Source of the DNA: an uncultured Flavobacteriaceae bacterium
GTDB taxonomy: Bacteria > Bacteroidota > Bacteroidia > Flavobacteriales > Flavobacteriaceae
Direction of reading: 5' to 3'
Assembly (NCBI GenBank): GCA_947502495.1
Contig: CANNAC010000001.1
Span: 434,001 to 498,000, forward strand
DNA length: 64,000 nt
The notes beneath the pieces were generated by a model. It had not been told where the DNA came from, did no database searches, and saw only the letters and a program-made list of their open reading frames with translations. The translations under genes were made by a program, and so were the position numbers. Of this stretch, positions 7,453 to 38,246 are shown one piece after another (position 1 is the first letter of the stretch; each line of letters starts with the position of its first letter).

Positions 7453-7696
7453 TTCTTATTCCTGTGAAAGCAGGAATCTACATTAGATTCTAAATCCAGT
7501 TCAGAATGACAAAACCCCGTTTAGAAAGACAAAATTTAGTTTAGAAAGATAAATATTCATGTATTTGCGTTAAGGATGGAAAGGTTTGTTTGAGCTCATC
7601 TTTGATAGCGAGCCTAGAAAGCCTGACGCTACGTAGCTTGACACCTTCGCCGAAATGGTTATGAAGGCTGAATAGCGAAGTAGGGTAACGCCATAA

Positions 7697-34931: not shown

Positions 34932-35134
34932 GTCACTTCGAGTGATTTTTGAGGAACGAAAAAAATAGTATCGAGAAGCGGGTGATTTTTGAGGAATGAA
35001 AAAATAGTATCGAGAAGCAAATGATTTTTGAGGAACGAAAAAATAGTATCGAGAAGCGGGTGATTTTTGAGGAACGAAAAAATAGTATCGAGAATCGAGT
35101 GATTTTTGAGGTGCAATAAAATAGTATCGAGAAG
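34932..35134. repeat. Direct tandem array, 39-40 bp unit, 5 copies
   Basis: TGATTTTTGAGG(AACG)AAAAAATAGTATCGAGAAGC; TGATTTTTG/TGATTTTT starts at 34943, 34983, 35022, 35061, 35100. Confidence 0.95.
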
Positions 35135-37142: not shown

Positions 37143-37185
37143 AGAAATTAGACTAATTTAGTAGTTATAGTTTAAACATAGGTTT

Positions 37186-37550
37186 GTCATTCCGCACTGG
37201 ATGCGGAATCCATTATAAAATGAAAGGAAATTATCATCAGTATTACACATATATACTTTCTAATATGAAAAATGGAACATTATATATTGGAATGACGAAT
37301 GATTTAGAAAGAAGGATGTTTGAGCATAAAAATAAGCTGTATGAAGGTTTTACTGAAAAATATAGTTTGCATATTTTAGTTTATTTTGAACAATTTCAAT
37401 ATGTAAACGATGCAATTAAAAGAGAAAAGCAATTAAAGAATTGGAATCGACAATGGAAAATTGATTGGATTGAAAAAGAAAACAAGAATTGGGAGGATTT
37501 ATCATCCGATTGGAAATATTAATGGATTCTGCGTCGTAGCGCAGAATGAC
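37186..37550. mobile_element. Candidate REP-like element: GIY-YIG ORF bracketed by inverted hairpins
   Basis: Left GTC-ATTCCGCA-ctgga-TGCGGAAT-CC (37186-37211); right GG-ATTCTGCG-tcgtag-CGCAGAAT-GAC (37524-37550). Confidence 0.7.
37220..37522 (+). CDS. GIY-YIG nuclease family protein (start re-assigned to ATG 37220; ORF track opens at TTG inside the hairpin)
   Basis: YYTYILSNMKNGTLYIGMTNDLERRMFEHKNKLYEGFTEKY...AIKREKQLKNW. Confidence 0.9.
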   Translation: MKGNYHQYYTYILSNMKNGTLYIGMTNDLERRMFEHKNKLYEGFTEKYSLHILVYFEQFQYVNDAIKREKQLKNWNRQWKIDWIEKENKNWEDLSSDWKY

Positions 37551-37567
37551 AAAACAACTAACAAAAC

Positions 37568-38101: not shown

Positions 38102-38107
38102 CTACTT

Positions 38108-38171
38108 GTCATTCCGCATTGAATGCGGAATCCGCAAAAAAAATAGATTCTGCGTCGTAGCGCAGAATGAC
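38108..38171. repeat. 64-bp paired-hairpin repeat without an ORF (REPIN/MITE-like)
   Basis: GTCATTCCGCAttgaaTGCGGAATCC ... GATTCTGCGtcgtagCGCAGAATGAC. Confidence 0.85.
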
Positions 38172-38246
38172 AAAACAAAAAACAAAAAATAAACAAATTG
38201 CCATAGCAGCTAAAGGCTAATAGCTAGTGGCAAAAAGCCATAAAAA

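Follow-up and report, generated by a model that had tools for sequence, protein, structure and literature searches.

A 64-mer in the window (the whole 64,000-nt stretch of Flavobacteriaceae DNA analyzed here) is probably a REPIN-like pair of hairpins of the TGTC/CGTC REP superfamily, for which stand-alone GIY-YIG nucleases would be the dedicated enzyme, a role like that of RAYTs toward GTAG REPs; as part of this explanation, each nuclease lineage appears to be tied to its own hairpin type. The reading is supported by the anatomy of the 64-mer, the bracketing of nuclease ORFs by matched hairpins across phyla, the co-variation of ORF and hairpins, the presence and absence of the nuclease cassette at orthologous sites, and a half-converted intermediate at the site of the 64-mer. 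The finding that such REPs, in most cases matching in type, stand on both sides of stand-alone GIY-YIG nucleases of ~95 aa is new.

Anatomy of the 64-mer and the adjacent nuclease cassette

The 64-mer reads GTCATTCCGCATTGAATGCGGAATCC + GCAAAAAAAATA + GATTCTGCGTCGTAGCGCAGAATGAC (26+12+26 nt), with its tags visible as TTGTC at 38106-38110 and the mirror GACAA at 38169-38173; the right stem is ATTCTGCG/CGCAGAAT, followed by C and T, and the left loop closes to 3 nt in the computed fold. As ssDNA the 64-mer folds to -17.3 kcal/mol (z = -5.4), a value equaled by 0 of 200 shuffles, and the window features five GTC-tagged perfect 8-bp hairpins and one close inverted pair vs 0.32 hairpins and no pairs in Markov-1 resamples; the structure is therefore not a product of chance. 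Most hairpins of this kind sit directly 3' of stop codons, and ORF-less copies in other genera have comparable short A-rich spacers between the hairpins. Matching of the hairpins to known RNA families returned a single match, which was below threshold.

Table 1. Coordinates of the 64-mer and of the GIY-YIG cassette in the window
Feature	Position	Strand	Description
64-mer	38108..38171	.	ORF-less head-to-head pair of TGTC-tagged REP hairpins (REPIN-like)
64-mer, left REP	38108..38133	+	GTC tag, ATTCCGCA/TGCGGAAT stem, CC tail; type B left end
64-mer, spacer	38134..38145	.	12 nt, A-rich
64-mer, right REP	38146..38171	-	type B right end; 26 nt identical to cassette right end
GIY-YIG cassette	37186..37550	+	365 bp; left REP, ORF, right REP
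Cassette, left REP	37186..37211	+	
Stand-alone GIY-YIG nuclease ORF	37220..37522	+	100 aa; PF01541 4e-15
Cassette, right REP	37525..37550	-	

The original prediction held that the 64-mer has the same two ends, in the same order, as a GIY-YIG nuclease cassette, and two such ends do bracket the nuclease ORF (Table 1); the cassette was placed 0.6 kb downstream, whereas it lies 0.6 kb upstream of the 64-mer. The identity claimed between the right hairpin with its following letters and the right end of the cassette also stands, as the hairpin together with the ACAAAACAA after it matches 37525-37559; the aligned repeat covers 49 nt at 92% identity. The nuclease shows the conserved residues Y11, YxG (22-24), R32, H36, and E69, and by alignment appears to have the catalytic Tyr, Arg, and Glu of the GIY-YIG domain; UPF0213 structures match the protein at E 1e-4 (PDB 1ywl, 1zg2). 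The dN/dS of ORFs of this type is 0.03-0.09 between genera, where dS is near saturation, and 0.37 within the genus, where changes are few; the ORF is thus estimated to be under strong purifying selection between genera. The orthologous spacer is without the cassette in 5/7 genomes of the genus; among those with it is G004.

Hairpins and cassettes of the same genome

The genome of the window (G000), from which the material included contig C1 (1.05 Mb) and sample stretches, contains 57 GTCATTC-N-GAATC hairpins vs 2 with the reversed control pattern; they belong to several stem types, many as inverted pairs and others single. The exact type of the 64-mer is present as one further full pair (C2:10374-10440), a head-to-head heterodimer as is the 64-mer, and as about 8 single hairpins. 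With relatives in G000 and in other genomes, the 64-mer is not a single-copy sequence.

A PF01541 search of G000 gives 13 GIY-YIG matches, and a profile of the stand-alone forms gives 9; one stand-alone ORF has an internal stop. Each of the 8 stand-alone ORFs that were inspected lies between hairpins of its own type, these being TTCCCACG/CGTGGGAA; GTCATTGCGAGG..GCAATC; GTCATCCTGAAC..TCAGGATCT; GTCATACTGAGCGCAG; GTCATTCAGAGC..GAAGAATCT, in an array with ORF-less copies; type B of the window; AACTTCCTGCG..GGAATCT; and GTCAGTTCGAGTGA..TCGAGAAC. Two Y1_Tnp (RAYT-like) genes of G000 (L133 and L134), one above and one below the Pfam cut-off, provide an internal control, as they are flanked by unrelated repeats of the GCGGATTTGCAATCCG and GACCTGCGAGGTTTTCAAAACC types; at L133 there is a long array of GCGCGGATTTGCAATCCGTG units.

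The cassette L126 (G000:C3:193596-194653) is found within a tandem array of ORF-less hairpin pairs with units of about 130-150 bp; the cassette L029 (G000:C7, about 155.2 kb) is located in the 5' end of a gene resembling a lipoyl-domain acyltransferase, where 40 bp of the target are directly repeated on either side of it, along with a short filler. Within the window, positions 34939-35134 hold five tandem copies of a 39-bp unit, CGAGTGATTTTTGAGGAACGAAAAAATAGTATCGAGAAG, which resembles the TTCGAGTGA..TATCGAGAA REP type flanking the cassette L030 of G000, and positions 7455-7510 hold an ORF-less mixed-type pair of a CCTGTGAAAGCAGG hairpin and a TCTAAATCCAGTTCAGA hairpin ending in GAATGAC.

Bracketed nucleases in other genera and phyla

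Three sets of loci were compared: a family set of 78 distinct cassettes from G000 and other genera of the family; a named set of 75 loci from GTDB genomes, found with a single-protein query and mostly from Flavobacteriaceae (genera include Winogradskyella, Algibacter, Flavivirga, Polaribacter, and Tenacibaculum, with one UBP14 and one Omnitrophota record); and a plasmid-collection set of 14 GIY-YIG loci from other classes and phyla. Most stand-alone GIY-YIG ORFs have inverted hairpins of one type about 20-100 bp away on either side, and the bracketing occurs in G000, dozens of Flavobacteriaceae genera, Rhizobiaceae, Azospirillum, Sphingomonads, Neisseria (dRS3), and Aeromonas. Flanking inverted hairpins score above 12 at 57/75 named loci and are found at 11-12/14 plasmid-collection loci. 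Under a strict tagged-stem definition, both sides qualify at 49/74 named, 8/14 plasmid, and 14/76 family-set loci, vs 3/50 control ORFs and 0.9% of random 120-bp windows; the figure for the family set is low because many of its types have imperfect or longer stems.

The hairpins of the plasmid-collection set are textbook CGTC REPs. Rhizobium has CGTCATCCCAGGGCTTGACCCTGGGATCCA, and Shinella and Neorhizobium have CGTCATCCTCGGGCTTGACCCGAGGATCCA; the cassette of Azospirillum lipoferum 4B is located between sufB and sufC with the REP CGTCATCCCCGCGAAGGCGGGGATCCA, and CGTC REP brackets are also found in Novosphingobium, Sphingobium, and Aeromonas. The hairpins of the N. gonorrhoeae cassette are CGTCATTCCCGC..GCGGGAATC, a type present 201 times in the gonococcal record vs 0 in the control. 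No hairpins were found on the flanks of the R. tumorigenes and Photobacterium GIY-YIG ORFs, and the R. tumorigenes plasmid has no such hairpins anywhere on the record. A separate stand-alone GIY-YIG ORF (L368, G042:C32, about 17.3 kb) has its insertion site at a tRNA-Pro (TGG) gene, and a 62-bp stretch from the 5' part of the tRNA is directly repeated on either side of it. GTC hairpins are missing, and the locus seems to be a different kind of GIY-YIG element, one that targets tRNAs.

Co-variation of nuclease and hairpins

Across 75 cassettes, protein identity is correlated with near-flank similarity (Mantel r 0.37, null sd 0.04; far flank 0.00), and with 163 cassettes the Mantel r of protein vs hairpin similarity is 0.61 (far flank 0.14); cassette pairs that are 80-95% identical share their hairpins in 77% and their far flanks in 0.5%. 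As protein and hairpin similarity track each other and far flanks hardly do, the ORF and its hairpins travel, or stay, together.

The abundance of the repeats had been expected to follow the presence of the nuclease; this is the case at the level of the superfamily, but not for the exact type, since ORF-less copies of the latter are mostly in genomes without a matching ORF. Over 151 genera, the GIY-YIG count correlates with GTCATTC hairpins per Mb at rho 0.39 (p 7e-7, phylogeny ignored), with rho -0.02 for the control pattern. The exact type B right hairpin is present in 8/151 genera, namely 4/6 of those with an ORF of at least 75% identity and 4/145 others (Fisher p 5e-5); in 3 of the 4 ORF-bearing genera it is the cassette's own end. 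G035, G011, G077, and G137, none of which has an ORF of type B, hold ORF-less copies of the exact type; the only other genome with such copies is G000. G101 carries 89 hairpins yet no stand-alone GIY-YIG ORF; G031, G066, and G100 are milder cases.

Origin of the 64-mer

The site of the 64-mer is the spacer at 38102-38246 of the window, 3' of a 177-aa ORF. Within the genus, G001 and G003 display a type A pair in this spacer; the sister species G004 displays a type A left and a type B right hairpin, a sequence that is identical in the Oceanihabitans MAG L244; and G000 displays type B on both sides, its left REP standing where congeners have type A. The right hairpin of G004 has a long loop insertion otherwise found in the right end of G004's own cassette, with 3 substitutions, and after it stands ACAAAACAA..ACTAACAAA, roughly 20 nt of host sequence from 3' of the cassette. 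Because the hairpin has both the private loop insertion of the cassette and its host flank, the cassette site was most likely the template from which the right half and that flank were copied together; the left half may have been replaced later in the species of G000, a direction and order deduced from these comparisons. The half-converted spacer of G004 therefore suggests end-by-end copying. The same spacer contains an additional palindrome at 38198-38233 of the window, TTGCCATAGCAGCTAAAGGCTAATAGCTAGTGGCAA, which is present in G000 and G004 and missing from G001 and G003.

Outside the genus, the orthologous spacer of G137 holds a type B pair without an ORF, and its neighbouring spacer has no cassette; in G149, G156, G050, and others the pairs at this site are made up differently, and in several genera no pair is present. 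Deletion of the ORF from a neighbouring cassette was considered as the sole origin of the 64-mer and rejected, as the pairs of the congeners and of G137 occur without a cassette next door. The view of the 64-mer as a REPIN/MITE-like, ORF-less relative of the GIY-YIG element is borne out by its relatives in several genomes; its proposed derivation from the neighbouring master is upheld insofar as the right half looks to be copied from the neighbouring cassette, but it is not a simple deletion derivative.

In the upstream spacer, at 37143-37567 of the window, about a dozen species have the cassette; G011, G075, and G098 have solo hairpins there, and in many others this spacer holds neither. The empty upstream spacers within the genus are also without hairpins. 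Host and ORF distances for the cassette spacer are uncorrelated (Mantel r 0.00, p 0.47, 12 loci with one pseudogene), and the nearest relatives of syntenic cassette copies are mostly syntenic. The residence of the cassette at this one spacer may reflect long vertical persistence or repeated arrival; the data fit both.

Comparison with known repeat systems

The CGTC/TGTC REP superfamily was described by Di Nocera et al. in 2013 as lacking a dedicated transposase and as consisting mostly of head-to-head dimers, often heterodimers; its REPs have an unpaired CGTC, TGTC, or CCTC tag at one end, an 8-9 bp stem starting with complementary AT, a 4-5 nt loop, and a CCA-type tail, and include Neisseria dRS3 (= CGTC-1) and Rickettsia RPE-6/RPE-4 (PMC3733652). 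The elements described here are alike in the tag (TGTC in the 64-mer, CGTC in the alphaproteobacterial cassettes), the AT-starting stem of about 8 bp, the short loop, and the unpaired CC(A) tail; they are likewise head-to-head heterodimers, with singlets, and are intergenic near gene ends. They differ in the stand-alone GIY-YIG ORF between matched hairpins in many genomes and in the low copy number of each type in G000.

REPIN-RAYT systems combine GTAG REPs with a Y1 HUH transposase (PMC3116915, PMC2817692). Shared features are the inverted REP pairs, an enzyme gene lying between REPs that match it in type, singlets that are remnants, and tandem arrays beside the enzyme gene; in contrast, the elements here have a GIY-YIG nuclease and a GTC tag in place of the HUH tyrosine transposase and GTAG, and a single genome can contain about 8 lineages. 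As tag and enzyme differ, the 64-mer and the cassette are not members of REPIN-RAYT, though the arrangement works alike. By sequence, the nuclease shares the GIY-YIG fold (PF01541) with GIY-YIG homing endonucleases and small UPF0213-type proteins; unlike the homing endonucleases, it is associated with no intron or intein, and its flanks are REP hairpins rather than an interrupted gene. The 64-mer resembles MITEs in being short, without an ORF, and with inverted ends; however, each of its ends is a hairpin, and a constant target duplication is not seen.

Proposed role of the nuclease and alternatives

It is proposed that the ORF-bearing pair is the autonomous form, of which ORF-less pairs and single hairpins would be satellites and remnants. 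The nuclease would recognize its REP hairpins and nick or cut at them, near the tag; repair would then use another copy as template and bring in its REP sequence, either with the ORF or without it. The outcome would be a homing-like spread in which resident hairpin pairs are converted, one end after the other, to the type that belongs to the nuclease. In its widest form the proposal is tentative, though well within reason: GIY-YIG nucleases could be the missing enzymes of CGTC/TGTC REPs (dRS3, RPE, and others), acting through hairpin-directed cutting and templated repair, a form of REP homing distinct from RAYT transposition.

Such breaking and copying fits better than clean transposition because end types are exchanged between hairpin types at single sites, host flank is copied, and arrays occur beside cassettes. 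In a RAYT-like transposition, the nuclease would process ssDNA hairpin ends and the unit would move via an excised intermediate, with ORF-less copies moved in trans; this would account for the tagged hairpins that stand inverted at the two ends, an arrangement known from REPINs (PMC3116915). Whole cassettes with similar ORFs and hairpins at different genomic places also agree with this, as does the joint absence of hairpins and ORF from empty sites. However, GIY-YIG enzymes are nucleases with no known strand-rejoining activity, and the host flank copied along with the hairpin at the half-converted spacer, the swapping of ends between types at one site, and the direct-repeat arrays that hold 47% of cassettes vs 12% of random pairs all speak against it; no constant-length target duplication was seen near cassettes, where direct repeats are mostly REP arrays of varied length. 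Transposition of this kind is therefore considered rather unlikely.

It is less probable still that the GIY-YIG ORF is a passenger, merely caught between two REPs that a RAYT or another transposase spreads. Hairpin-rich genomes without a stand-alone GIY-YIG and the RAYT-like gene in G000 would be in keeping with this; however, the ORF matches its hairpin type and appears to be under strong purifying selection, and the 2013 survey found no RAYT with CGTC REPs on its flanks (PMC3733652). A RAYT as the mover was rejected, as both Y1_Tnp loci of G000 carry other repeats. The position of most hairpins right after stop codons might also suggest ordinary transcription terminators or RNA-stability elements, with the GIY-YIG pairing incidental; this is highly improbable given that the T-run of intrinsic terminators is absent, the GTC tag and CC/CT tail are constant across stem types, the same sequence occurs in unrelated contexts, and mirror-oriented hairpins are located on both sides of the ORF, the upstream side included.

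Implications

A literature search, with bioRxiv and most subscription journals outside its reach, found no link of GIY-YIG to REP, REPIN, or RAYT; earlier publication is possible. The 2013 survey of CGTC REPs closed by asking what moves them (PMC3733652); the small GIY-YIG gene, which in at least two phyla lies between REPs of its own type, is a testable candidate for this moving enzyme, and the bracketing connects Neisseria dRS3 and similar repeats with a single family of enzymes. The half-converted spacer suggests that copying can rewrite the REP type resident at a given site; if so, the evolution of REPs would have to be read differently.
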